A program made the translations under genes and the position numbers. DNA of 64,000 nucleotides from Halorhabdus rudnickae (GTDB lineage: Archaea > Halobacteriota > Halobacteria > Halobacteriales > Haloarculaceae), in the NCBI RefSeq assembly GCF_900880625.1, contig NZ_CAAHFB010000001.1:1798001-1862000 (forward strand), written 5' to 3'. The notes under the pieces were generated by a model. The model made no database searches and was not told where the DNA came from. It saw only the letters and a program-made list of their open reading frames with translations. Shown here in pieces: positions 8,582 through 43,380 of the stretch (position 1 is its first letter; every line of letters starts with the position of its first letter).

Positions 8582-10123
8582 CTATTCTATTGACTTTATC
8601 AGAAATATACCATTATTACGGAAAACTACTTCATAGCCATCCATCTTGTTAACTGTTGACTGGTTAACCATTATCTTTGGAATATAATAATAGTCTGCAT
8701 CAAATCCATGCTGGATGGATTTTTTAACGATATCGTCAAAGTTACTTGATTTACTTAAATCATGGCTAAACAGACGGAGTGCTTGGAAATCCTGATTAGG
8801 GTCGAATTCGGCTCCCCACGGAACATTGAGAACAGTCCTTTCAGCGTAGAAGGGAAGCTTCTCGGAAGCTGCTCCGATTGCAATAAATGTTGACTGTTCT
8901 GGTGTATTTTCGTGTATCCAGTTTGCTGCTTGTTGGTCGTCAGCGTTCCATCCACTGGTCATGAGTGTTGTGTCACCATCATAAACTCGCGTATACTGAT
9001 TGCTTGCGTACATGACCCCGGAGAGTACGCTAAGTAGAATGATTGCTACAAGCGCGCCACGTTTGACAATTTGGCCCCACTCTTGTGACGTCGCTTTCGA
9101 TTGCAACATTGGCAGGACACCCTCATACAGAAATGATACCGCCATTAGGATTTCCGCAAGATAAACGAACCGTTCCGCACCGGTAGTGAACCACGAGACA
9201 ACGAACACCACGGGTAAAAACATCTTCCGTCGTGCAAGGAGATACAGCCCTCCGAGTGATCCACTATAGAACGCTACCGTTGAGGCGTATTGTGTCTGTT
9301 CCAGCGTCGGGACTTTGATTGCGAACCTAATGAATTTGATCACGGAATCGAGCGAAAGGGATACTCGACTCCCTGACGTGAGTCCCGCGAGAAACGGATC
9401 GATACCTGTATGAAGAAGAACGGTACCCCACCAGACTGATGCGATACTCACACCTCCGACGGCGACGATGGTCCCATGTACAAGGCCACTAATCGACCGA
9501 TCTTTTGTCAAGTAGATGGTTAAAAACCACAATCCAGCTGCGTAACCACACAGGGGATGAGACAATACTGCGAGTCCAAACGAAACTGTTGCGCCGATAA
9601 GCCAGCGTCGATCGAAGTCGGAATAAAGACACAGGCCGAAGAAGACAGTCGCTAAAAAGAAGCAATAGCCGAGGCCGCGGACTGCTCCACCAGGAATCGC
9701 CATATACCAAAATATCGCTGGTGCCGTCGTCGCAAGGACCGTAGCGACGATCGATTCGATTTTGTCGTCAAATAGCTCTTGGGCAATTTTGTAAATGAGA
9801 AGACCCAAAACACCATTCCAGACAAAGGATAAGAAGATAGTCGCTGACAGGTACTCCATCCCTGTAATATCGTGGACGAGGGCGATAAAATAGAATCCTA
9901 AGGGAGGATATGCGAATGGAATACCGCCTTCAGTGAAATGGGGTATAGTTTCTGGCAACAAATACCCATTATTTGATATTTCTCGCGCCATTGCGAGATA
10001 CAGTCCAGGTATTTTCGGATTGGAGAACAAGTTGTATGCTGCGACAATAGTTATCGGAGAGACAATAGCTATGAGATATGGGTAGTACTCCTTATATGGG
10101 AGATTCTCCGAAAACTGATCCAT
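8582..10123 (-). CDS. AT-rich polytopic membrane protein, GT-C-like
   Basis: 513-residue protein with about a dozen hydrophobic segments. The N-terminal loop contains FTEGGIPFAYPPLGFY, comparable with the extracytoplasmic first loop of GT-C glycosyltransferases (dolichyl-phosphate sugar users), and the last about 100 residues are soluble (TTLMTSGWNADDQQAANWIHEN), like the C-terminal domain of STT3/PMT-type proteins. The DNA is clearly more AT-rich than neighbouring genes, as is the 400 bp upstream, which suggests acquisition by transfer. A TATA-like AAATATAAG lies about 30 bp before the ATG. It is alone on its strand and convergent with the AlkP gene at 7584. Confidence 0.72.
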   Translation of the reverse strand: MDQFSENLPYKEYYPYLIAIVSPITIVAAYNLFSNPKIPGLYLAMAREISNNGYLLPETIPHFTEGGIPFAYPPLGFYFIALVHDITGMEYLSATIFLSFVWNGVLGLLIYKIAQELFDDKIESIVATVLATTAPAIFWYMAIPGGAVRGLGYCFFLATVFFGLCLYSDFDRRWLIGATVSFGLAVLSHPLCGYAAGLWFLTIYLTKDRSISGLVHGTIVAVGGVSIASVWWGTVLLHTGIDPFLAGLTSGSRVSLSLDSVIKFIRFAIKVPTLEQTQYASTVAFYSGSLGGLYLLARRKMFLPVVFVVSWFTTGAERFVYLAEILMAVSFLYEGVLPMLQSKATSQEWGQIVKRGALVAIILLSVLSGVMYASNQYTRVYDGDTTLMTSGWNADDQQAANWIHENTPEQSTFIAIGAASEKLPFYAERTVLNVPWGAEFDPNQDFQALRLFSHDLSKSSNFDDIVKKSIQHGFDADYYYIPKIMVNQSTVNKMDGYEVVFRNNGIFLIKSIE

Positions 10124-10540: not shown

Positions 10541-12121
10541 TCAGATGATTCGGGAGAATACTTTGTAACCAAGCCGATCGTCAATCTGGTTGACGGCTCT
10601 TCTATCCTCGGCTGTGAAGGAATCAAACACTACTAGAAGTATGAAGTACAGGGCTAAAACCGCCACCGGAGCGATAAGGGCTGTCTCGATGCGTCGTCCG
10701 ACTATTTGGACGATGAAATATCCACTTATCAACGTAAGGAGCCCAGATAGCCAAAGTTTCACGAGCGATCGGTCCACAGGAACAAACCCCTCGAAGACAC
10801 GGATCTCGGTAGCGGTCAGCACAGCAAGGAATGTGAGTGAGGTGGCAGTTGCCGTGGCAGCCCCCACAATACCGAACGTTGGGACCAGAGCGAAGTCGAG
10901 TATGGAATTCAGGCTGACGAGGACGACCGTGTTGAGGAATGTTATCCGAGTGCGACCGATACTTTCGATGAATCGTCCCGACGGACCCACAGATATATTT
11001 AGGAATTGGCCGACGACGAGCAAAACTAGTGCTGGTGCGGCGACAGCGTACTTCGCAGAGAAGAACAGTGACAAGTACTGCCCAGGCAACACTAGCAACG
11101 TCACGACCGCGGGGAACGTAAGCATCGTCACCCACCGAACGATTAGCTGATAACGCTCACGGCGAGCGTTCCCGTCGTGCTGTTTTTCCGCGATCATCGG
11201 CTTGAAAATCGGTTTGATCGCCGTGTGAACGATCAAGATATTCGTCGCGAGCAAGTATGCGACGCGATATGACGCCACGTCGGCGGCAGGATGAAAGTAG
11301 CCAATGACGAAGTAGTCGATCTGTGCGACGGTCGCATAGATGACACCTGCGAACGCCAGCGGCAGCGAATACGACACGAGTGAAGAGATCGAGTCCCTGT
11401 TGTATGTTGGCCACGAAATCCAGTTGACCTTCCGGTAGAGCAACCACAACCCGAGAAGAACCGACCCCAACACGCCTAACAGATGTGCGAGCATGAGGCC
11501 GTGGAGCGAGAAGCCGAGAGAGAGGAACACCACGACACTACCCAGCATCAAGATGGGTTGGGTGAGGTTCTTCGTGAGCACCCGGTAATGCATCTTTTTG
11601 ATGCTGTTGAAGGTAGCAAACAGAATCCGATTGAGCGCGACGAGGAGAACAAGCAGTGCTACATACGGCATGATCGCTGACAGTGCTGACTCACCGAAGA
11701 GGGCTGAAATCCGATCAGAGAACAACAACACGACCCCGAGAACGACCACAGTCGATGGCACTGTGATGCCGATCACGTTCCAGAAAACCTGATTTGCCCC
11801 GTCGTGATCGTTGTCCGCGAGATGTTGGGGGATAAAATAATCTACGGCACGGTTGAGGTTGATATTCGAGAACGACTGTGAGAACATCACAATCGAGATG
11901 GCAAGTGTATAAACGCCAAAGGTAGATTGGGTCGTAAGCCGCGTCGCGGCGAGAAAGAACCCGAATTTGATTGCCTTGCCGAATACGTTTCCGAAAAGCG
12001 TCGTTCCCCCCTGCAAGAAAAACGTTGAACTGCCGGCGGGGTCCTCATCCTCAGGAACAGTTTCACCAGAGGCGTCACCGCTGGCGTCGGTAGCGACAGT
12101 TTCATCCACGTCGTCGGCCAT
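10541..12121 (-). CDS. Polysaccharide/lipid-linked glycan flippase (MVF/MATE-like)
   Basis: Membrane transporter of about 526 residues that should move lipid-linked oligosaccharide across the membrane. After an acidic cytoplasmic N-terminus rich in Asp/Glu, the segment FFLQGGTTLFGNVFGKAIKF begins the first of 12-14 helices, as in Wzx-like flippases. Typical parts follow: LTTQSTFGVYTLAISI and a late ILDFALVPTFGIVGAATATA. The ATG at 12121 (MADDVDETV) is preferred to an in-frame codon nine residues upstream. It is divergent from the phosphodiesterase-like gene at 12185, with which it shares a 63-bp promoter region. Confidence 0.88.
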   Translation of the reverse strand: MADDVDETVATDASGDASGETVPEDEDPAGSSTFFLQGGTTLFGNVFGKAIKFGFFLAATRLTTQSTFGVYTLAISIVMFSQSFSNINLNRAVDYFIPQHLADNDHDGANQVFWNVIGITVPSTVVVLGVVLLFSDRISALFGESALSAIMPYVALLVLLVALNRILFATFNSIKKMHYRVLTKNLTQPILMLGSVVVFLSLGFSLHGLMLAHLLGVLGSVLLGLWLLYRKVNWISWPTYNRDSISSLVSYSLPLAFAGVIYATVAQIDYFVIGYFHPAADVASYRVAYLLATNILIVHTAIKPIFKPMIAEKQHDGNARRERYQLIVRWVTMLTFPAVVTLLVLPGQYLSLFFSAKYAVAAPALVLLVVGQFLNISVGPSGRFIESIGRTRITFLNTVVLVSLNSILDFALVPTFGIVGAATATATSLTFLAVLTATEIRVFEGFVPVDRSLVKLWLSGLLTLISGYFIVQIVGRRIETALIAPVAVLALYFILLVVFDSFTAEDRRAVNQIDDRLGYKVFSRII

Positions 12122-12184
12122 ACAATCTATCGGACGATTTTCGAACAAACAAAGGTTTGTATCTCCTATCGAGAGTGTTGATCA

Positions 12185-13792
12185 ATGGTTTCGACGCTCG
12201 TCGTGGGCATCGACGCGGCCACCTGGGACATCCTCGAGGGACTGCTCGATGCTGGAGACCTTCCACATCTCGCGTCACTTCGGTCAGACGGCACACACGG
12301 GACCCTCACCTCGACACGTCCGCCGATGACCCCCCAAGCCTGGACCTCGATGGTGACCGGCGTCAATCCCGGGAAACACGGCATATTCGATTTCAGGACA
12401 CAGGATCCCGAGACCTACGAGGTTCGGCCGGTCGACGCGACCGACCGCAGGTTTCCCACGCTGTGGGACGTCTTCGACCACGCCGACCGATCGAGTGGGG
12501 TAGTCAATCTCCCCGTCTCCCATCCTGCACCGAGTAACACTTCGTTTTTTGTCGCCGGGTTTCCGGCCTCCGTCGACGACGACATCGTCGCGCCACAGGC
12601 GGCCGCCAATCATCTCCCCGACGACTATCGAATCGAACCCACAGTCGATCCGGACGACGATCCGGCGGCGTATCTGGAGGCAGTCGAGGCATTGATGAGC
12701 GTCCGAACGGACCTCACGCTCTCGCTGCTGGACGCCTACGATCCGGAGCTGTGTTGGACTGTCTTCATGGGAGTCGACTGGGTGCAACACTACCTCTGGA
12801 ACGATCAGATCGACGGGGAGCGCGCGGTTCATCGGGCTTACCGCCACGTCGATGCGCAACTCGGTCGCCTTCTGGAGGCCATCGATGACGACGTGAACGT
12901 CCTGGTCGTCTCCGATCACGGCTTTCGTGAGATCGACGGCGAGATCCATCTCAACTCCGTGCTCGAATCGCTCGGCGAACTCCGACGGTACGATGCAGAC
13001 GACGACACAGGGGCCTTCGCCACGTTTGCGACCGCCGCGCTCGCAGCTATCGAACGCTTTCCCGATAGTGTCGAGCACTCGATCAAGGCGGCTGTCAAGC
13101 GAGCGGCTCCGGCGTCGCTACTCCGGCGCAGCGAGCAGGCGGCCGGTCTGACGGGCCAGCGCTATCTCCACGAGCGCGTCGAGTGGTCGGCCACGCGGGC
13201 GTTCAGTTACGGATCGATGGGGCGCGTGTTCCTCAATCGTGCGTCTCGGTACCGGGACGGGACGATCGAAGAGGCAGACTACGAGTCGGTCCGCGCGTCG
13301 CTAGCCGCCGATTTAGAGGGTGTCATACACCCCGAGACCGGCGATCAGGTGTTCGAAGCCGCGACGCCAGGCGAAGAGGTCTATACCGGCGGATCCACCG
13401 ACGCGGCCCCAGATCTCCTGTTGACACCGACGGACTGGCGATACATGATATACGGCGGGTTCGGCGACGAGTGGCTACATCCTCCCGAGAAACGATACGC
13501 CGATCACGCGCCAGCGGGGATTTTCCTCGCCGCAGGCCCCGACATCGCCGCGGGAACCTGTGATGCGTCCGTATATGATGTTGCACCGACCGTACTGGCA
13601 CTACACGATCTGCCACTGGTCGAAGGAATGGACGGGGCGCCACTGACGTCGATGCTCCGCGGAATCGACGTCTCTGGAAAGACGGTCGCCCCCGATGCGA
13701 TCCGAGACGAATTATCACACGGACCGACAGATAGGAGTACGGATCCTGACAACGACGTCGAGGACCGGCTCGAAGACCTCGGGTATCTATAG
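12185..13792 (+). CDS. Type I phosphodiesterase/nucleotide pyrophosphatase-like protein
   Basis: AlkP-superfamily phosphodiesterase of 535 residues. The start LVVGIDAATWDILEGLLD carries the first metal-binding Asp; RPPMTPQAWTSMVTGVNPGK carries the nucleophile region, and FMGVDWVQHYLW and VVSDHGFREIDGEIHLN provide the other metal ligands. It ends RLEDLGYL. Haloarchaeal relatives occur in surface-glycan and sulfate/phosphate-modification loci. No signal peptide or membrane segment is visible, so the protein may act inside or be anchored by a partner. It overlaps the Nudix gene tail-to-tail by 6 bp. Substrate is not deducible. Confidence 0.85.
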   Translation: MVSTLVVGIDAATWDILEGLLDAGDLPHLASLRSDGTHGTLTSTRPPMTPQAWTSMVTGVNPGKHGIFDFRTQDPETYEVRPVDATDRRFPTLWDVFDHADRSSGVVNLPVSHPAPSNTSFFVAGFPASVDDDIVAPQAAANHLPDDYRIEPTVDPDDDPAAYLEAVEALMSVRTDLTLSLLDAYDPELCWTVFMGVDWVQHYLWNDQIDGERAVHRAYRHVDAQLGRLLEAIDDDVNVLVVSDHGFREIDGEIHLNSVLESLGELRRYDADDDTGAFATFATAALAAIERFPDSVEHSIKAAVKRAAPASLLRRSEQAAGLTGQRYLHERVEWSATRAFSYGSMGRVFLNRASRYRDGTIEEADYESVRASLAADLEGVIHPETGDQVFEAATPGEEVYTGGSTDAAPDLLLTPTDWRYMIYGGFGDEWLHPPEKRYADHAPAGIFLAAGPDIAAGTCDASVYDVAPTVLALHDLPLVEGMDGAPLTSMLRGIDVSGKTVAPDAIRDELSHGPTDRSTDPDNDVEDRLEDLGYL

Positions 13793-14278
13793 GACGCCCG
13801 TGTCGGCGAGATACTGGGCCGTATAGGGGTGGAGATCGTCGGGTGGCGTCTCAAAGATGTCGACGGCGTCGTGCTGGTCGTCAAGCGCGAACGTCTCACT
13901 GTCTGTTCGGACGACGAAGCCGTTGGCGAGGTAGTGTTTCCCCCCAGCGTCCTCGACATCGGCGGTTCGATAGAAGTGCTGGTACGCGCCCAGAGACGCC
14001 TCGATAGTGACGTCGGCGTCGAGTTCTTCCTCGGCGACCCGGTGGACCGCCTCCTGGAGGCGCTCACCTTTCCGGACGCGACCGCCGGGGACGAACCACT
14101 CGCCGCTCGCTGGTTCGTTCGTCCGGCGTGCGAGGACGACCCCGGCACCGGTTTTGACGACCAGGTCGATGGAGACGATCGGGACCGAGGCGACGATAGT
14201 CGCCCAGTCGTCAGCGTCGATCCAGCCGGGACCAGTCACCGCCTCGGAACGGATCGCGTTGTCCACGTGCTCAGTCAT
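13787..14278 (-). CDS. gmm: Nudix hydrolase, GDP-mannose mannosyl hydrolase type
   Basis: 163-residue Nudix protein. The sequence [21 protein letters not shown] followed by [15 protein letters not shown] matches the atypical Nudix box of GDP-mannose mannosyl hydrolase, in which the usual REuxEE is altered. Such enzymes hydrolyse GDP-mannose or GDP-glucose with inversion at C1. The start MTEHVDNAI at 14278 overlaps the end of fcl (14271) by 8 bp, so the two are translationally coupled. With fcl and gmd it forms the order gmd-fcl-gmm. The specific name is inferred from box and context. Confidence 0.8.
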
Positions 14279-15233
14279 CTGCGATCTCGTCACGGTGAGT
14301 CTCGTACCACTCGATTGTCTCCCGTAAACCGTCCTCGAAGTCAGTCCGAGCTTCCCAGTCGAAGTACGCCTTCGCACGGCTCGTATCGAGGCGCCGCCGG
14401 GGTTGGCCGTCTGGCTTTGAGGTGTCCCACTCGATGTCGCCTTCGAAGCCGGTCAGGTCAGCAATCGTCTCTACGAGGTCACGAATCGAGATTTCCATCC
14501 CGCTGCCGAGGTTGACCGGCTCGCTTCGGTCGTAGCGTTCCGTTGCGTCGAGGATGCCACGCGCGGCGTCCTCGACGTAGAGGAACTCCCGGGTCGGTTC
14601 GCCGGTCCCCCAGGCGGTAATCGCGTCCTCGCCCCGCTCGCGTGCCTCGACGCACTTGCGGATGATCGCCGGAATGACGTGAGAGGTCTCCAGATCGAAG
14701 TCGTCGCGCGGCCCGTAGAGGTTGACCGGCATCAGGTAGATGCTGTCGAAATCGTACTGTTTGCGGTAGGCCTTCGACTGGGTCAACAGCGCCTTCTTGG
14801 CAATGCCGTACGGGGCATTTGTCTCCTCGGGGTACCCGTCGAAGAGGTCGTCCTCATCGAACGGGACTGGGGTGTGTTCGGGGTACGAACAGATCGTCCC
14901 CAGGATGGTGAACGTCTCGACATCGAACTGCCGAGCCAACTCCAGCAACTCGATACCCATGATCGCGTTGTCGTAGAAGTACCGTCCCGGGTTCTTCCGG
15001 TTGGCACCGATGCCGCCGACAGTGGCCGCGAGGTGCAGGACGGTGTCCGCGCCGGAGTCGACGAACGCCCGCCTGATGTCCGCACGTTCACGAAGGTCGT
15101 ACTCGTCACTCCGGGGGATGAACACCTCGACTGTGTCCGATCGTGCGGTCAGTTCCTCGACGAGGTGGCCCCCGAGGAATCCCGACCCGCCGGTGACCAT
15201 CACCGTTCGATCGTCCCAGAACGACCCGCTCAT
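14271..15233 (-). CDS. fcl: GDP-L-fucose synthase (epimerase/reductase)
   Basis: Extended SDR enzyme of 320 residues that converts GDP-4-keto-6-deoxy-mannose to GDP-L-fucose with NADPH. Seen: Rossmann motif [11 protein letters not shown] near residue 13, the family-typical [20 protein letters not shown], the catalytic pair in YGIAKKALL (YxxxK) and [10 protein letters not shown]. The ATG at 15233 (MSGSFWDD) is chosen because it overlaps the gmd stop by 4 bp (ATGA) and because upstream residues are not conserved. It lies between gmd and the Nudix gene in one operon. Confidence 0.88.
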
Positions 15234-16291
15234 CGCCAATCGACTCTCCCGTACCAGCGCTGAGTGTTGTTCGCGTACCAGTCGATCGTTCGACGGATCC
15301 CTTCTTCCCACTCGACCTGTGGTTCCCACCCGGTCTCCTCGTGAAGCTTTTCGTACCCGACGCGGAGTTCCTCGACGTCGCTATCGCCCGGTCGATACCG
15401 GTCCTCGTCCTGGACGATTTCGGGACGTTCCCAGTATCCTTCCTCGGCACCGATGTCGAGGATCATGTTCGTCCACTCGCGCATCGAGACATTCTCGCCG
15501 TAGCCGTAGACGTACTGTTCGCCGGGGTTGCCCGAGAGTGCTACGTGGAGGTGCCCACGGACGCCGTCGGCAACGTAACACATGTCGCGCTTGGGCGCGA
15601 GGTTCCCCAGCTCGACGATCTCTCGTTCCAGTGCCTGCGTGATGATTGTCCCCGTAATGTACCGTGGGTTCTGTCGCGGCCCGTAGTTGTTGAACATCCG
15701 GGTCGTGACCGCCGGCAATCCGTAGGCATCGTGATAGTTCATCGTCAGGAAGTCGGCCGCGAGTTTCGAGGTTGCGTAGACGCTGGTGGGATTGACGGGT
15801 GAGCGCTCGCTCAGAATGACCTGGCCGTCGTCGTGGAATTCGTGGCTGTCCCGCATCTCGTCGTCGACGTTCCCGTACTCTTCGCTCGTTCCAGCCGTGT
15901 CGAACTTCGCTATATCCAGGTCGAGATCGACAATGCTTTGCAAGAGATTGAGCGTCCCCGTGACGTTGGAATCGACCGTCTCGTATGGGCGTTCCCACGA
16001 TTCACCGACGTGTGCCTGCGCAGCCAGGTGAAAAATAAGCGTGTCACTGAAATCGATGAAAGTCGATAAGACACGTTCAACCGAATGTTTGTCGCGTAAG
16101 TCTCCCCGATGGACAGTGATCTCCTCGCCTTGGTGACGGACATTCTTCAGCTCACCGCTCGACGTCGCACGCACGAACGCGTGGACATCGGCACCACTAT
16201 CGACGAGTCGATCTACAAGATGGGAGCCGACAAACCCATCCGCGCCAGTTACGAGAACGGGCCGACCATCAAGTTCCGATTGGACGTTCAT
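15230..16291 (-). CDS. gmd: GDP-mannose 4,6-dehydratase-type SDR enzyme
   Basis: NAD(P)-dependent extended SDR of 353 residues. Rossmann motif [18 protein letters not shown] and the catalytic YATSK are visible, together with [16 protein letters not shown], which fits sugar nucleotide 4,6-dehydratases. Sequence alone cannot exclude another NDP-sugar dehydratase, but the fcl and GDP-mannose Nudix genes directly downstream make GDP-mannose the likely substrate. It lies 57 bp after the STT3-like gene and overlaps fcl by 4 bp. Product would be GDP-4-keto-6-deoxymannose for glycan synthesis. Confidence 0.78.
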
Positions 16292-16348: not shown

Positions 16349-19300
16349 TCAGGGAGATGTGATGTTGGTGAACGACCGCGGAATCGAATTTTGATCGAGC
16401 CCGGTTGCGGAGAACTTGACTTCGTCGATCAACCCCTGAAACGAACTATGCGTGTCGGCGTTCGCTCCGAGCACAAGCGGGTGCCGCGACCGAATATCGC
16501 CCGAATATACATTCGTCCTCACGAGACGTCCGTCAACAAATAGACGCACCATGTCTCCGTCCCAAGATAGTGTCGCCACGTGCCACTGTCCGTCGGCCAC
16601 TCCCGGGCCGCCAAGAACCGTTGTGCTTGATCCGTTACCCATCGCGGCGAAAATTCGCCCTTTGTGTAATCCGAGCTGATATCCGTCTACGTTTCCGAAA
16701 TACGACGAATTCGATGTCGATACCAAACGCGGGGCGACAGTATCGTTCCTGTAATCGACCTGCTCGTGTGTCCGAAACCGAACTCTTACCGAGAATTCAT
16801 CGGTGTTCGTGAACGTTCTAGAATCCCGGATTCGAGCGTACCCTTCGCCATCGAAGGCGAGTCCTGTCGAATTCCCATTCGAGAACCTGTCAACTGTCGC
16901 GATCTCGCCGTGGTGGCCGCCGACAGTATCGTAAGCGACGCGGCCCGAACCGGTCTCGAACGCCCAGGAGGCATTCGGTTGGGACCCGACGCCGTCGACG
17001 CGGATCACCGATCCATCCCGAACAGCGGTTTCCGTCACTGAGAACGACGCTGAATCCACAGCATACTCGCCAGCGTACGGTACAATCGCAGCGTACCAGC
17101 CGTCCGTAGCCGTTGTCACGGTTCGCCGATACTCGATCTGTTCCCGGCCGATCGACGGTTCCCCTTCGATCGTCACAGCGTCACCAGCAGCACGCCCGGT
17201 CACCAGCGCCCCGGGAACAGCCTGGCCGACGTGCGGTCGTCCGTCCGGAGCCGTGTAGACCGGCCGAAAGTGGCCCCAGCCGAACGTCGTTTCAGAACCG
17301 ACATCCGATTTGAGGTGATCAACCAGCGTGCCACCGCCCCCCTCGTCCGCAATTCCATCGGCGACGACGTACTCCACTCGATCCGCGTATTTCCAGTAGG
17401 TTGCAACGGGCGTCTCGGACAGACTTACATTGGCGAAGTGAGATTTTGCATACGAATATGATCCCGAATTACCACTGAGGAAGTAATTGTAGACTCGGTT
17501 GCGTCCCCAACCGCTGAGTACGTAGTTTGCGTCAGTAATGTTCTCTTGACTGTCGAAGGACTCGACCCACGTGGCCGTCTCGTAGGTATCACCGTCGATC
17601 GTGAGTTGGGACTGCTTGACCGGCAGCTGAACGAGGCCAATGCTCGCCACCACCAGAAAAAATACAGCAATGAGTGCGACCATCCGTGGCGAAATCGAAC
17701 GGGGGTCGAAATCCACGTCGATCGGAGCTTCTGAGGAGGAGTCGCCGAACAGTGACGGAGAGCGAAACAGCTCCAGGTGGGCCCCGATATGAACGAAGCC
17801 GACAGCTCCGAAAAGGGCGACGAACAGCGAAAGCTGACCTGCGAACCGGACCTGCGCGATCGCCAGGCCGAAAAACACCCAGGCGTACACGACCGCGACC
17901 GCCCACTTGGGCGCATGCGTCCGGTAACAGTGCCAACTGGCCCACGCCAGGTACGGGAGTGCTAACACAACTAGCAGTCCGAAAAACAGGATCGGTCCGA
18001 AGATAGAACCCATCTCACCCCCGACGATCGAAGCGGTTTCGACAATGTTGCTCGACCCGGCCCAGCCCATGTAGCGCAGGAACTTCGACATCGCCCTGCC
18101 GACCTCTGGAACGAACAACCACGCGAGAAAACTGACGACGAACCCGGAGCCGACGATCGCCCCGATCCCGACACGGAGCGAGATACCCGAGTGCCGTACT
18201 CCTTGTGCGGCTGTCAGAACGGTGACCGCACCACCAAGTAGCAACCAGGGCGCAGCGACTCGATACAGTGGAAACCACCCCCACAAGACGTGCGCAAGCA
18301 CACTCAAAATAGCCCCACCCGCGATCCCGAGTAACAAACCTACGTTTGTCCCGATCGGAGAGGTGCCGGCTCTGACGTCGGACACTGCGCGATAGACCAC
18401 GTAGAATGCGATCGGGGCAAGCAAAATGGGACCCCCGCGCCACGCTGCGATCTGAGCCCCGATTCCGACCGCGAGAAGTACACTTCCCTGCCAGGCGTCG
18501 CGGATCAATGAGAACCACCGGTCCGAAGAGCGGTATGTCGTCGGTGTAGCTAGCAACACGAGGGCGAATACGGTCACGGCTACCCAGACGTAGTCGAAGG
18601 CGTGGTGATCGGCGAATCCGAGCATCGTCCGATACCCGTGAACCGGCGTCACTGCCAACAGCAGTACGGTCGCGAGGGCGATTCGCCGATCCTCACTCAG
18701 CCGCTTTGCGATCAGATAGAGAACGGCTGCGCTGGCGACGCCTGCGATCACCGGATACCAGGCCAATACGACCCCGGCTACTTCCGGCGACCCGCCGAGT
18801 GCGGCGGCGACCCACCATAGGACAACGATCAAGAGTTTGTCCTGAGCGTATCCACCTGCAGGGATCTCGCCGAGAGAACTGAACGAGAACGCGCTGATAT
18901 CGCCGTGGAGCAGAGACTCGAGCCAGTATCGATACCCCCACGGATCGTTCCCTACGAGCACGACGTCACTGCCTCGAAAGACGGCCGGAAACGGGAGGGC
19001 GACCCGAAGGAAAACCACGAAGACGAGCGAAGCTACTCCTGCAAGCACGATAGGTTGTGACGGCTTCGGAACCGAGACTGCCACCGATGAGAGCGAAATC
19101 CCGTTATCGGACGTTTCGAGATCGGTATCCGTGCCAAGTGCCTTCTCTACGGCTGTCCGGTCGACAACTCGATAGCCCGCCACATTCTTCTCGACGATAT
19201 CACGCGAGACGATTTCACCGAATGTCCCGGAGTCGATAGAGAGGTCGTCGAACTCCCACGGCCCATCTTCGTCGACATCGAGAATTTCTTCGAGGGCGGA

Positions 19301-19357
19301 CGCAACTGCTGGCTTCTCGTCGAGCAACTCGGTGACCTCCTCGCGGGGACCGCTCAT
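16349..19357 (-). CDS. STT3/AglB-like oligosaccharyltransferase with C-terminal LamG domain
   Basis: 1002-residue membrane protein. A soluble N-terminus of about 105 residues precedes some 12-13 membrane helices. The first outer loop has LVGNDPWGYRYWLES (the metal-binding Asp region of STT3) and a later loop GFADHHAFDYVW. In the soluble part, where STT3 normally has WWDYG, the aligned-looking stretch is LSGWGRNRVYNYFLSG. From about residue 790 a concanavalin/LamG fold follows (SWAFETGSGRVAYDTVGGHH ... WHVATLSWDGDMVRLFVDGR ... GLIDEVKF). The family transfers glycan from dolichol phosphate to Asn-X-Ser/Thr sites outside the cell. It is 52 bp behind the GT2 gene. Confidence 0.82.
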   Translation of the reverse strand: MSGPREEVTELLDEKPAVASALEEILDVDEDGPWEFDDLSIDSGTFGEIVSRDIVEKNVAGYRVVDRTAVEKALGTDTDLETSDNGISLSSVAVSVPKPSQPIVLAGVASLVFVVFLRVALPFPAVFRGSDVVLVGNDPWGYRYWLESLLHGDISAFSFSSLGEIPAGGYAQDKLLIVVLWWVAAALGGSPEVAGVVLAWYPVIAGVASAAVLYLIAKRLSEDRRIALATVLLLAVTPVHGYRTMLGFADHHAFDYVWVAVTVFALVLLATPTTYRSSDRWFSLIRDAWQGSVLLAVGIGAQIAAWRGGPILLAPIAFYVVYRAVSDVRAGTSPIGTNVGLLLGIAGGAILSVLAHVLWGWFPLYRVAAPWLLLGGAVTVLTAAQGVRHSGISLRVGIGAIVGSGFVVSFLAWLFVPEVGRAMSKFLRYMGWAGSSNIVETASIVGGEMGSIFGPILFFGLLVVLALPYLAWASWHCYRTHAPKWAVAVVYAWVFFGLAIAQVRFAGQLSLFVALFGAVGFVHIGAHLELFRSPSLFGDSSSEAPIDVDFDPRSISPRMVALIAVFFLVVASIGLVQLPVKQSQLTIDGDTYETATWVESFDSQENITDANYVLSGWGRNRVYNYFLSGNSGSYSYAKSHFANVSLSETPVATYWKYADRVEYVVADGIADEGGGGTLVDHLKSDVGSETTFGWGHFRPVYTAPDGRPHVGQAVPGALVTGRAAGDAVTIEGEPSIGREQIEYRRTVTTATDGWYAAIVPYAGEYAVDSASFSVTETAVRDGSVIRVDGVGSQPNASWAFETGSGRVAYDTVGGHHGEIATVDRFSNGNSTGLAFDGEGYARIRDSRTFTNTDEFSVRVRFRTHEQVDYRNDTVAPRLVSTSNSSYFGNVDGYQLGLHKGRIFAAMGNGSSTTVLGGPGVADGQWHVATLSWDGDMVRLFVDGRLVRTNVYSGDIRSRHPLVLGANADTHSSFQGLIDEVKFSATGLDQNSIPRSFTNITSP

Positions 19358-19409: not shown

Positions 19410-20630
19410 TCACCGGTCTGCTAGCACGCTCAGGAAGAACGATTTGAAGATCGTCTGTAGCCCCACGACGATGGCAGTAAACGCGAGAATGTCGTGTCGC
19501 ATGCCGGGCAACGCCCCGTACCCGGCTGTATACCAGACCCAGAGGATCCAGCCAGCGTACACGACACCGGGGAAAAACACGGCGAGACCGATTGTGCCAC
19601 CGAGTTCCATCGTCATATGATCGATGATCCAGTTGGTCACGCGATCGTCCGGTCGCCGAATCGGATTTGACGCCATCGTCGCAAACGCACCGAGGCCGGC
19701 AATCTGGTAGCCAGCGATCATCAAGAGACTGCCAGCGAACATGGTTCGGACACCAAACGGCCAGATGATACCGTCGATGGAAAATTCGACACCGGAAACC
19801 GAACCACCGACCATGACCAACCCGGCTATCATTAGAACCACTCCCGGGACAGTAAACAGGTATCCGGGCGCGTTCACAAGCATGAACTTGATGTGGCGCC
19901 ACCCGTCCTGAAAGCTATTCAGCGTCGCCTCCCCCTCGCGTTCGTGGTAGGTGATCGGTACCTCTTCGATCGTCAGGCCGCGTGCGCCGGCATCCATGAC
20001 CATCTCGCTGGCAAACTCCATCCCGTCGGAGTGCAAGTCCAGAACGTCAAGCACGTCGCGATGAAAAACCCGAAAGCCGCTGTGTGCATCGCTGATATCG
20101 GTATCGTAGAACAGATTCAAAAACGCTGTCAGCAGCGGGTTACCAACGAACTGGTGAAGCGTTGGCATCGCGCCGTCCTTGATTTCGCCCTCGAAGCGAC
20201 TCCCCATGCAGATGTCCGCGTCGCCGTTTCGGATCGGATCGAGCAGATTGGGCAACTCCTCGAAGTCGTAGGTCGTGTCGGCATCGCCCATCACGATATA
20301 TTCCCCGCGGGCCTGGTCGAAGCCGTAGCGATACGCGTACCCGTATCCCGTTCCGTCCGGTTCGACGACGTGAGCGCCCATTGCCCGACCGATATCGGGC
20401 GTCTGATCGCTCGAACTATCACTTAGAATGATCTCGCCGGGTAGTCCGATCTGCTCGAAGGCTGACGTAGCACGCCGGATACACTCTGCGATCCCTTCCT
20501 CTTCATTCAGTGTCGGCATGACGACACTGATCACGGGGTCGCGTTCGTCTCCGGCGGTGACGAAGTGCGAGTCCGCCCCAACCCCGTCAGCGTCTGAAGC
20601 CACAGTCGGAACGTGAACTTCGGCGACCAT
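19410..20630 (-). CDS. GT2 glycosyltransferase, dolichyl-phosphate-sugar synthase type
   Basis: 406-residue GT-A enzyme. The catalytic domain begins ISVVMPTLNEEEGIAECIRR and contains the DxD-type GDADTTYDFEELP and MGSRFEGEIKDGAMP, close to polyprenyl-phosphate sugar synthases (AglJ/DPM-like). About four membrane segments follow (LFTVPGVVLMIAGLVMVGG and others), as in DPM-like enzymes of archaea. It probably loads a sugar onto dolichol phosphate at the cytoplasmic face, feeding the STT3-like protein encoded next. Start ATG at 20630 lies 6 bp after the stop of the small Cys-containing ORF. Confidence 0.87.
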   Translation of the reverse strand: MVAEVHVPTVASDADGVGADSHFVTAGDERDPVISVVMPTLNEEEGIAECIRRATSAFEQIGLPGEIILSDSSSDQTPDIGRAMGAHVVEPDGTGYGYAYRYGFDQARGEYIVMGDADTTYDFEELPNLLDPIRNGDADICMGSRFEGEIKDGAMPTLHQFVGNPLLTAFLNLFYDTDISDAHSGFRVFHRDVLDVLDLHSDGMEFASEMVMDAGARGLTIEEVPITYHEREGEATLNSFQDGWRHIKFMLVNAPGYLFTVPGVVLMIAGLVMVGGSVSGVEFSIDGIIWPFGVRTMFAGSLLMIAGYQIAGLGAFATMASNPIRRPDDRVTNWIIDHMTMELGGTIGLAVFFPGVVYAGWILWVWYTAGYGALPGMRHDILAFTAIVVGLQTIFKSFFLSVLADR

Positions 20631-21069: not shown

Positions 21070-22107
21070 TCAGTCAGTACTGCTTGTCACGTTCACAAAC
21101 ACGTGATTCCATCGGTAGGCGTTCTCGACCGATGGATCAGCCGGTGGCTCCCCACGGTACAGCAGAAAGACCAGCCGTAACTCCTCGCCGGTCATCGTTG
21201 GCTTGGCCTCGTACCGTTGGTGCCACGTCCCATTCGCCTCGACACTCGTCGCCAGTCGATCGAGTTCCTGCTCTTCGAGTACCGTCGTGGCGTCCCCATC
21301 GCGTTCGACCCGCTGTAACGCGATCACCACCGTGTAGTCCATCGGCTCGTGTTCGTGATTGCCGATTCCGACGACTAGGGGCTTAGACTGGCCGACCGCG
21401 AGGGTCGTTGAGTAGTTCTCGGCGACGAGTTGGCCGTCAGCATCCTCGTTGAGCAGATAAAGTTCCGTGAACGCGTCTCCCTGTCTCGTACCCATCACTG
21501 CGTAGGCCACGCTCGCGGTCGCCAGTAAGACGCTGAGTAGCAACAATACATTCAGTGCAGTGTCAGTTCGAGAGTCCGGTGCGAACAGTTCCGAACGCCC
21601 AGCGACAATCCACTCCTGATAGGGGACTTGCAGTCGCTCCCCGGAGGGGAGCTGTCGACGCCGATACGCGGCCAGCACGACGAACCCGAGAGTCAACGTC
21701 GTCAGCGACACGACGATCGGCACAGGACGGATCCCCCAGGGCGAGAAATTCAGTGCCAGCCCCACGAGAGAGACGATGGCGATCGAGAGCGCGAACGAGA
21801 GAGCGGTACGCTCGATGCCGTCGATGCCGCGTCCAGCGACGACCGATCGCCCGCGACCGCGTTCCTCGGCCGTTCCGTCACGATCGGTTCCGGCGGCCTC
21901 AGGGAACAGTGCCGCGACGAACGCGTAGCCGGGCACGAACAGGACGAACACGAAGCCAAGCACCACTCGCAATGGCGTCTCGCTGATCCACGGAACGGAC
22001 ACGACGACCAAAGTTAGCACGGTCCAGAGACAGACACCAGCCAAATCGGCAGGGAGATCCCGAAGTTGTCCGGGGAACGACAATGACCTGTCCGGGCGAT
22101 CGGCCAT
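21070..22107 (-). CDS. DUF1616-family membrane protein
   Basis: 345-residue protein. Four or five membrane helices (LAGVCLWTVLTLVVVSVPW, GFVFVLFVPGYAFVAALFP, ALSFALSIAIVSLVGLAL and others) are followed by a soluble C-terminal domain with LYLLNEDADGQLVAENY, typical of haloarchaeal DUF1616 proteins. Its function is unknown; relatives often sit in surface-glycan clusters. The 200 bp between its stop and the operon promoter at 20800 show no gene. The start is the first ATG with a plausible acidic cytoplasmic lead. Confidence 0.82.
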   Translation of the reverse strand: MADRPDRSLSFPGQLRDLPADLAGVCLWTVLTLVVVSVPWISETPLRVVLGFVFVLFVPGYAFVAALFPEAAGTDRDGTAEERGRGRSVVAGRGIDGIERTALSFALSIAIVSLVGLALNFSPWGIRPVPIVVSLTTLTLGFVVLAAYRRRQLPSGERLQVPYQEWIVAGRSELFAPDSRTDTALNVLLLLSVLLATASVAYAVMGTRQGDAFTELYLLNEDADGQLVAENYSTTLAVGQSKPLVVGIGNHEHEPMDYTVVIALQRVERDGDATTVLEEQELDRLATSVEANGTWHQRYEAKPTMTGEELRLVFLLYRGEPPADPSVENAYRWNHVFVNVTSSTD

Positions 22108-41543: not shown

Positions 41544-43280
41544 TTATTGTGGGAGGTAGATACAGAAACCGCCGTTCGGACGCACGCTAATGGAGAGTTC
41601 GTCGGCTGGGTCGACCGACAGTGAATCGCGGCGGAGCACCTCACCAGTGTCGTCGTCCTGGAGTATCGTGCCGGTCCTGGATTCAGACAGAAACGACAGC
41701 GGAACGTCGATTGTTTGCTCACCACCAGCAGTGATCGAGCCGACGAACCACTCGCCACCGGACCGACGGGCGATCGTCGCTCCTGTCCCCGGTTGTCCGG
41801 CGATGAACCGCGTTTCGTCCCAGACTGCGGGGACCCGTTCGAGAAACCACTCCGCGTGCGGGCGAGCGGCATACTCGTCGATGCTGTCGGCGAAGTGTTG
41901 GAGACCGGATTCATAGACGACCGAGAGGGCGAGTTCGTGGCCGACGGTCGTGTGTCTGTTCTCTGCCGAGAGCGTCACGGGCGTGTAATCCATCGGTCCG
42001 ACGACGTTGCGCATGTACGGCAGGACGGTGTTGTGTGTCGGAGTCAGCGTCGCCCACTCGTAGTGTTCGGCTCCTTTGACGGCCTCGTAGGTGAGGACGT
42101 GTGGCCAGCGAGCCTTCATCCCGGTCGGGAGCAAGGAACTGTGGAAGTTGACCATCAGTTCGTATTCGGCAGTTGCCTGTAGCAATTGGTCGTAAAACTG
42201 CATTCGACCCTGTTCGTTGGCGTCCATGACGTCGATCTTGATGCCGTCGACACCCCAACGCTTCCAGCGTGAGAGCTTCACTTCACGCTCCTCGGGATCA
42301 TAGAGGTCCGTCCAGTGTGTCCAGATGAACACGCCAACGTCTTTGGCCGCCGCGTACTCGACGACGTCCGGCATCCACTCTGCCTCCCACCCTTCGTCAA
42401 TGAGGACGTATTCCCAGTCGCGTGCACTTGCGTAGTCGATATAATCCTTCTGTCGGTCAGGGTTCGCGGCGCTGTCCCACTCAGACCACCACGACCAGGC
42501 AACTCGACCGGGTTCGATCCAGTCGGTATCATCGATCTGTGAACCCTCGACCAGTGCCGGGACGAGATCGGATTCGACGACGGTTTCGAGACTGCCGAGA
42601 ACGATCACTCTCCAGGGAATCTCGAAACCACTCGTGGTCCGAACGGGAAACTCAGGATGTTGGAAGTACATCCGATCGTCTTGCGGATCGGCCCCGAGCT
42701 GGGAGGGCATAAACGAACCGTCGACATCGGCTTCGGTGAGGAGAACCCACTGATCGTCGTAGATCTTGAACAGCCCCGGCATGGAAAAGGTCCCCGCGGC
42801 GTCGAACACTGACGTCTGATGGATGTCCGTCTCGTGGCCGGTCGCGTACGGCGAGAGCCACGAAATCGTCCGGCGGGGAAACCGGATACCTGCCTCTTGC
42901 TGGAACGTAAGCAAGACGCTCGTGTCGGGAAATCGAAGCCGGAACGCGACCCCGTTGGCGGAGACGCGGATATAAAACTCGAGGCGTTGACCGTTCGATA
43001 GATCACAGGAGAAAACGCTCTCTGTCGCTCGATACGTGTGTTCCCGTTGCTTGCCAGTGACTGTCGAAAACTCCCGGTGGATCTGACGCTCCGTCCGACT
43101 GATCGATATGATAGAGACCTCTTCATTCCCCTCAGACCCGTCGGATACGGGATCAGTGAGTCGGAGAGGGGACGGTTTGATTAGCTGTCGACCCTCGTTC
43201 GAGATAGCCATTGTCTGTACCGTCCCGCCAAGAGAAAGGTCAACGGTGATGTCCGCTTCGGGACTCTGTACCGTTGGCAT
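41544..43280 (-). CDS. GH97 glycoside hydrolase, probable alpha-galactosidase type
   Basis: 578-residue intracellular enzyme. An N-terminal beta-sandwich (TVDLSLGGTVQTMAISNEG) leads into a TIM barrel with WSWWSEWDSAANPDRQKDY, VLIDEGWE and GIKIDVMDANEQGRMQFYDQ, ending with a C-terminal beta domain. In retaining GH97 enzymes (alpha-galactosidase type) an Asp at the end of the strand GxKxD is the nucleophile; D in IKIDVMD fits this. Signal peptide is absent, so it would cleave imported oligosaccharides. ATG 43280 follows TTTATGTAC by about 26 bp. Near galT-galE-galK, which supports galactose release. Confidence 0.8.
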   Translation of the reverse strand: MPTVQSPEADITVDLSLGGTVQTMAISNEGRQLIKPSPLRLTDPVSDGSEGNEEVSIISISRTERQIHREFSTVTGKQREHTYRATESVFSCDLSNGQRLEFYIRVSANGVAFRLRFPDTSVLLTFQQEAGIRFPRRTISWLSPYATGHETDIHQTSVFDAAGTFSMPGLFKIYDDQWVLLTEADVDGSFMPSQLGADPQDDRMYFQHPEFPVRTTSGFEIPWRVIVLGSLETVVESDLVPALVEGSQIDDTDWIEPGRVAWSWWSEWDSAANPDRQKDYIDYASARDWEYVLIDEGWEAEWMPDVVEYAAAKDVGVFIWTHWTDLYDPEEREVKLSRWKRWGVDGIKIDVMDANEQGRMQFYDQLLQATAEYELMVNFHSSLLPTGMKARWPHVLTYEAVKGAEHYEWATLTPTHNTVLPYMRNVVGPMDYTPVTLSAENRHTTVGHELALSVVYESGLQHFADSIDEYAARPHAEWFLERVPAVWDETRFIAGQPGTGATIARRSGGEWFVGSITAGGEQTIDVPLSFLSESRTGTILQDDDTGEVLRRDSLSVDPADELSISVRPNGGFCIYLPQ

Positions 43281-43380
43281 ATCCGAATACACGGTACATC
43301 AGTACATAAACGCCACTACTGCTGGCTCGGCGGTGTTTAGTTACGCCTGAAAAGTGAGGCGGGAGAATTTTCGGATGGTC

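Follow-up and report, generated by a model that had tools for sequence, protein, structure and literature searches.

An STT3/AglB-like protein of Halorhabdus rudnickae without the WWDYG motif and its relatives in Halobacteriales

Background

Which acceptor would be served by a protein that keeps the catalytic residues of the archaeal oligosaccharyltransferase AglB and has lost WWDYG, the motif that marks such enzymes and is used to explain the Asn-X-Ser/Thr rule? The question is raised by a gene at 16349..19357 (minus strand, as are all features of the window described below) in a 64,000-nucleotide stretch of Halorhabdus rudnickae DNA (RefSeq assembly GCF_900880625.1, contig NZ_CAAHFB010000001.1, positions 1,798,001 to 1,862,000), referred to here as the window. 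Its open reading frame starts with ATG and encodes an STT3/AglB-like protein of 1002 amino acids, as identified by Pfam, NCBIfam and structure matches; the initial annotation of this DNA had described it as an STT3 relative with an altered WWDYG region. The roles of residues D47, E360 and D161/H163 in AglB, and the reading of the +2 Ser/Thr hydroxyl by the WWD segment, have been established previously (PMC7226087). A large family in which the catalytic centre is kept and the reader is swapped would show how acceptor choice changes, and it would make available an enzyme that glycosylates proteins at sites other than the sequon. It would also supply a concrete gene for a halobacterial N-glycan pathway distinct from AglB, a question that dates from the 1980s-90s (PMC2952790, PMC6591318, PMC3871713). 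We found no description of a WWDYG-less haloarchaeal STT3 in the open-access literature, which does not prove that none exists.

From the sequence comparisons and the structure model presented here, we estimate a probability of about one half that the protein and its relatives, hereafter the variant family, are oligosaccharyltransferases that move lipid-linked glycans to acceptors not read via the +2 Ser/Thr.

Results and discussion

Loss of WWDYG in a separate clade

Neither WWDYG nor a near variant of it occurs anywhere in the 1002-residue protein or in 80 other distinct relatives, i.e., the motif is found in 0/81 variant members versus 40/40 canonical AglBs (all conservation counts given here compare these 81 distinct family members with these 40 canonical sequences). 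At its place in the MAFFT alignment stands the segment WGRNRVYN (residues 617-624; 17486..17509), part of a family signature V-x-S-x-W-x-x-N-R-x-Y-N, or in a longer form YV(F/L)SxWG-x-NR-x-YNYFVNGE. Conservation is high at V613 and N624 (81/81 each), W617 (80/81), R621 (79/81), Y623 (73/81) and N620 (69/81). The segment GWGRNRVYNY (616-625) is preceded by YVLS, and the WWDYG of the canonical AglB in the same genome by YGVMS. The median spacing from the motif to the downstream VPGA anchor is 97 residues in the variant family versus 247 in canonical AglB. The K(F/Y)..AP pattern, which resembles the DK motif of the DK/MI element in the core domain, is found in 0/81 variants versus 32/40 canonical AglBs, with the DK motif assigned by eye and the segment about 150 residues shorter in the variants.

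The H. rudnickae genome contains two PF02516 genes, namely the variant and a canonical AglB with WWDYG at C1:724 kb. Across the order, the variant is present in 61/126 Halobacteriales genomes (E of 1e-30 or better), and a match above the cut-off of TIGR04154 (archaeo_STT3), the NCBI model for haloarchaeal AglB, in 121/126. Among 247 sampled genomes of the phylum, full-length variant matches were confined to Halobacteriales; outside the order, the best match (108 bits) covers part of the membrane domain and is an ordinary AglB. In a FastTree phylogeny built on 776 columns with local supports, one branch with 100% local support separates the canonical (10) from the variant (81) sequences, which places the variant family outside the AglB clade; the deep order within the variant clade is soft. 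The change noted in the initial annotation is therefore genuine, it is fixed throughout a clade of its own, and the two findings named there as fatal to the proposal did not appear: the protein holds no WWDYG elsewhere, and it does not group with canonical AglBs that carry the same change. On the sequence evidence, the variant is a fixed STT3 subfamily confined to Halobacteriales and no decayed AglB. An ordinary AglB in which WWDYG has drifted would likewise have the STT3 fold and a beta domain following the core, but the WWDYG-bearing AglB in the same genome, the fully supported separate clade, the conserved new signature and the missed TIGR04154 cut-off (130.9 bits versus 450) leave this explanation practically no chance; the tree and the co-existing AglB already refute it.

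Catalytic residues and fold

The residues that carry out catalysis in AglB are retained. The external loop 1 (EL1) motif GNDPWGY (residues 136-142; 18932..18952) holds Asp138, the equivalent of A. fulgidus AglB (AfAglB) D47, and both N137 and D138 are conserved in 81/81 members. The metal-binding motif ADHHAFDY (249-256; 18590..18613) corresponds to the AfAglB D161/H163 region, with D250 in 73/81 (E in the other 8), H251 in 81/81 and H252 in 70/81, so that the family mostly retains an AglB-type D-x-H metal site. Both motifs had been read from the letters in the initial annotation, and both are present as described there. In EL5, the TIxE-like motif NIVE (437-440; 18038..18049) aligns with TIGE of canonical AglB and contributes Glu440, the equivalent of AfAglB E360 (81/81); QVRFAGQ (502-508; 17834..17854) contributes Arg504, the equivalent of the lipid-phosphate contacts PglB R375 and yeast R404 (81/81). 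The combination of catalytic Asp, catalytic Glu and lipid-phosphate Arg expected of AglB is thus found in every member. The invariant columns among the 81 relatives, V613 and N624 of the signature together with N137, D138, E440 and R504, indicate that the motif pattern is not due to chance. Retention of the catalytic residues combined with replacement of WWDYG points to unaltered chemistry with an altered reader, and a changed acceptor, as the initial annotation had proposed, would be the natural reading.

The same columns bear on the possibility that the variant is a non-catalytic STT3 relative, e.g., a regulator or chaperone of AglB. Such a role would be compatible with the large sequence distance from AglB and with the missed cut-off of the AglB family; against it, the catalytic and metal positions rank with the best-conserved columns, with D138, E440 and R504 kept throughout, and the genomic partners are glycan-building enzymes that differ from those beside AglB. 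We regard a non-catalytic role as very improbable.

Membership in the STT3 superfamily follows from the PF02516 (STT3 N-terminal) match, which at 4.3e-8 and 33.5 bits exceeds the Pfam cut-off of 24.5. The GT-C membrane domain (residues 100-530; 17768..19060) matches canonical haloarchaeal AglB in profile-profile comparison with a probability of 100% (E 1.2e-42), and an AglB_L1-like beta domain (716-775; 17033..17212) scores 20.1 bits, under its Pfam cut-off, with its VPGA...G anchor aligned with canonical AglB. The AlphaFold2 model of the protein has a mean predicted local distance difference test (pLDDT) score of 74.5, with most of the membrane part above 85. Its best structural match is AfAglB (Foldseek E 4.7e-22; VIA Z 37.4 to 3waj over 596 residues at 3.8 Å), which ranks above eukaryotic STT3, PglB, DPY19 and PMT, and the membrane and core domains of the model share the STT3/AglB fold of 3waj.

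Lower in the same ranking stand GT-C relatives with other acceptors, DPY19 at Z about 24 and PMT at about 20. DPY19, a C-mannosyltransferase, has an STT3-related GT-C fold in common with the variant; it uses dolichyl-phosphate mannose (Dol-P-Man) and tryptophan acceptors. Such matches fit the proposal that the variant O-glycosylates Ser/Thr or modifies another side chain, in which case the loss of WWDYG would mean that the N-glycosylation sequon has been given up altogether. However, the equivalents of D47 and E360, which are described as gripping the Asn amide, are kept in 81/81 members, AglB and STT3 are the best fold matches, well over DPY19 and PMT, and the long clusters with a flippase and several glycosyltransferases around the variant suit en bloc transfer over short O-glycans. 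We consider O-glycosylation a serious competitor that is nevertheless unlikely.

Compared with AglB (AfAglB 3waj/7e9s, TIGR04154), the variant shares the GT-C fold, the EL1 Asp, the DHH metal motif, the EL5 Glu, the RF Arg and a soluble domain whose last part is an AglB_L1-like beta domain. It differs in having no WWDYG, in missing about 150 residues with K(F/Y)..AP, and in its W-x-x-N-R-x-Y-N signature, its additional domain at the N-terminus, a LamG domain in some members, and other neighbours, including a PF02397 initiating enzyme.

Genomic partners and the lipid carrier

A PF02397 phosphoglycosyl transferase gene lies within 8.5 kb of the variant in 33/81 loci versus 0/40 canonical AglB loci (p 1.4e-7). 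Genome-wide, PF02397 occurs in 58/61 genomes with the variant versus 23/65 without it (p 4e-13) or, among genomes at least 90% complete, in 55/58 versus 19/47 (p 6e-10); these p values are indicative since related genomes are not independent. Proximity to PF02397 comes and goes about 19 times along the tree, which argues against a single inherited operon. Flippases and family 4 glycosyltransferases (GT4s) are frequent near both variant and canonical AglB loci, and the contrast is thus more than one between a glycan island and none. An undecaprenyl-diphosphate phosphatase-like gene is also found nearby in 9/81 variant loci versus 0/40 AglB loci (p 0.03). The PF02397 enzyme makes lipid-pyrophosphate-linked sugars, and undecaprenyl-pyrophosphate phosphatase also belongs to pyrophosphate-linked carriers. 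To our knowledge, the haloarchaeal AglB glycans studied so far are carried on dolichyl monophosphate. The initial annotation had viewed the protein as a second, specialised transferase for the glycan of its own cluster. A second STT3 beside a WWDYG AglB is what the genome contains; the specialisation is not upheld, because the family is found beside many differing glycan clusters, mostly with a phosphoglycosyl transferase.

Exopolysaccharide loci, too, typically contain flippases, GT4s, sulfatase- and phosphodiesterase-like proteins and PF02397, and the variant could accordingly ligate or polymerise surface polysaccharide or glycolipid, handling a lipid-linked glycan with no protein acceptor in the manner of WaaL or exopolysaccharide enzymes. 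There is a precedent in AepG of Haloarcula, a dolichyl-phosphate glucuronosyltransferase that serves exopolysaccharide and not S-layer glycosylation (PMC9943897). This explanation is at odds with the retained AglB-like soluble domain on the peptide side and with plasmid loci of Haloplanus and Salinibaculum, where an S-layer or surface glycoprotein gene is nearby and sugar genes are few; it is improbable in our judgement. On a plasmid of Haloplanus sp. GDY1 (L055:5480-14355), the genes for the variant STT3, an S-layer glycoprotein and an undecaprenyl-pyrophosphate phosphatase stand together, possibly as a mobile surface-identity module.

The Asn-2 glycan of Halobacterium

An activity that could suit such an enzyme has been described for Halobacterium salinarum. 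The S-layer glycoprotein of this species carries at Asn-2 a repeating-unit glycan that is assembled on a pyrophosphate carrier and blocked by bacitracin; glycosylation of Asn-2 persists when the sequon Ser is changed to Val, Leu or Asn, for which "no suitable explanation" was given, only one oligosaccharyltransferase gene being known for the species at that time (PMC2952790). Surveys list a single aglB in H. salinarum (PMC4335974), and the part played by AglB in the Asn-2 glycan is "still not clear" (PMC6591318). The second oligosaccharyltransferase, known there by activity only, would be expected to be independent of the +2 residue, to use a pyrophosphate carrier and to act on the S-layer, and these properties match the lost WWDYG and the PF02397 link of the variant. 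An STT3 that lacks WWDYG and travels with PF02397 has the properties that an Asn-2-type pathway calls for.

In the Halobacterium-like genus g35 of our sample the variant is present in 4/13 genomes, and an S-layer-type gene lies about 4-6 kb from it in two of them (G064 and G160); an S-layer gene is also near the variant in Haloplanus. Searches that took S-layer protein sequences of Haloferax and H. salinarum as bait led to relatives alone, the best identities being 68% and 84%. The S-layer-type genes compared in genus g35 (L193, L194, L195, L196 and L197) are few in number, and their cleavage sites were placed by eye. Their predicted mature N-termini are AN-A-S in one protein each of G095 and G151, AN-E-V in a second S-layer-type protein of G151, AN-A-D in G064, QAGNIDD in the variant-bearing G160 and SNPTG in G080, which has no variant. 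Three variant-bearing genomes thus keep Asn-2 while the +2 residue is Ser, Asp or Val; G160 does not. The pattern is a lead, not evidence, and the variant-bearing G095 has no PF02397. In the same genome, two adjacent short frames at G095:C1:214022-214499, near S-layer genes, match family residues 1-160 and are probably a broken second copy of the family.

A second-transferase role for Halobacterium Asn-2 glycans fits these observations but is not proven, and the second STT3 of many salt-loving archaea may be the long-sought other transferase. The full proposal, in which the family is a class of N-glycosylating oligosaccharyltransferases independent of the sequon Ser/Thr, uses mostly dolichyl-pyrophosphate donors and includes the enzyme for the Halobacterium Asn-2 glycan, is tentative and rather doubtful as a whole.

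Proposed mechanism and points against it

In the reading that we favour, i.e., transfer of lipid-linked glycans to acceptors outside the +2 Ser/Thr rule, the variant STT3 would work beside AglB on the outside of the membrane, use a glycan linked to dolichyl-(pyro)phosphate as donor and transfer it en bloc to the side-chain amide of Asn in surface proteins, e.g., the S-layer glycoprotein. The acceptor would be picked by the W-x-x-N-R-x-Y-N signature, perhaps with protein context, instead of by the +2 Ser/Thr. In most species the donor would be pyrophosphate-linked and begun by the PF02397 phosphoglycosyl transferase; in H. rudnickae it would probably be monophosphate-linked and begun by an adjacent AglJ-like family 2 glycosyltransferase (GT2), possibly with a GDP-derived 6-deoxyhexose. 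LamG, where present, would serve as an accessory module for targeting or glycan contact.

Several points weigh against this reading. The retained catalytic residues would not alone be sufficient to establish Asn as the acceptor. The register that sets WGRNR opposite WWDYG comes from the MAFFT alignment and from the succession of structural elements, and a profile-profile alignment of the C-terminal domain sets WGRNR, without confidence, opposite a downstream strand; we prefer the WWDYG register, as a matter of judgement, because the later EYVVAD strand of the variant itself matches RYVMVD. Neither PF02397 nor PF00953 is found in the H. rudnickae genome (99.99% complete), which makes the inference of a pyrophosphate donor inapplicable to its family member. 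Finally, the variant family is absent from 15/15 Haloferax genomes and therefore does not explain the AglB-independent Asn-498 glycan of that genus.

The absence from Haloferax agrees with the published statement that Hfx. volcanii has no Stt3 homologue besides AglB (PMC3871713). HVO_2052 (arCOG00563) resembles the variant in being described as a distant PMT/STT3 relative, located in the second, low-salt N-glycosylation cluster of Haloferax (PMC5898192); it is probably distinct, given the lack of the variant family in Haloferax genomes.

Accessory domains

The C-terminal LamG (concanavalin-like) domain occupies residues 836-990 (16388..16852; Laminin_G_3 7.6e-18 in Pfam). The domain had been predicted in the initial annotation at about 210 residues, and it proves to be present at a length of about 155-170; it is poorly modelled because few rows of the alignment carry LamG. 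On the tree it is found in 25/81 distinct members with at least 11 state changes, and it is an accessory module. A core function of LamG was rejected, since just 25/81 members have it; an essential role, or the glycan binding that the initial annotation had considered for it, is not supported.

At the other end, an N-terminal helical domain (residues 1-75; 19133..19357; pLDDT about 77-94) has a profile likeness to the N-terminus of EMC3/TMCO1-like proteins. Its profile matches, at 1e-8 to 1e-12, cover residues 1-94/111 of haloarchaeal proteins of about 300 amino acids that belong to PF01956 (EMC3/TMCO1-like), and pairwise BLASTP against an EMC3/TMCO1-like protein gives only E 0.005. The insertase genes compared (PF01956, translocon-type) are L077:901-1779 and L088:913-1779, both on the minus strand. 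Could an insertase and a glycan transferase share a docking domain via these N-terminal ~75 residues?

The H. rudnickae locus

Upstream of the variant gene lie an AglJ-like GT2 with C-terminal hydrophobic segments (19410..20630; TIGR04182 161.6 bits, under the cut-off of 325), probably a dolichyl-phosphate sugar transferase, and a DUF1616 membrane protein (21070..22107; PF07760 1.7e-110), a possible partner of the variant STT3. The AglJ-like GT2 adjoins the variant gene in 8/81 loci; the DUF1616 gene is found in 7/81 variant loci, all seven LamG-bearing, versus 0/40 canonical AglB loci, and the set of both recurs in related loci, e.g., in Natrinema thermotolerans and Halorientalis. A pyrophosphate donor was rejected as first choice for the H. 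rudnickae member in view of the missing PF02397 and PF00953, and a monophosphate-linked donor is more likely here.

Downstream of the variant gene, a trio at 13787-16291 consists of a GDP-mannose 4,6-dehydratase-like (gmd-like) short-chain dehydrogenase/reductase (15230..16291; PF16363 1.3e-70, no NCBIfam equivalog cut-off reached), a GDP-L-fucose synthase-like (fcl-like) gene (14271..15329; NF047922 288 bits, cut-off 500) and a GDP-mannose mannosyl hydrolase-like (gmm-like) NUDIX gene (13787..14377; NF011963 95 bits, cut-off 146). None of the three reaches an NCBIfam equivalog cut-off. The order gmd-like, fcl-like, gmm-like, which is also that of the colanic acid locus of E. coli, suggests GDP-L-fucose or a related 6-deoxyhexose, and the donor in H. 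rudnickae may carry such a sugar. The deoxysugar-type glycan that the initial annotation had proposed for the cluster fits this order as a GDP-deoxyhexose, the unmet cut-offs notwithstanding. The cluster further contains a polysaccharide flippase (10541..12148; PF13440 5e-27) and another GT-C-type membrane protein, PMT_2 (8585-10123; PF13231 2.2e-10), possibly a dolichyl-phosphate sugar transferase. Elsewhere in the window, a glycoside hydrolase family 97 protein is encoded at 41547-43292 (PF10566 2.8e-64).

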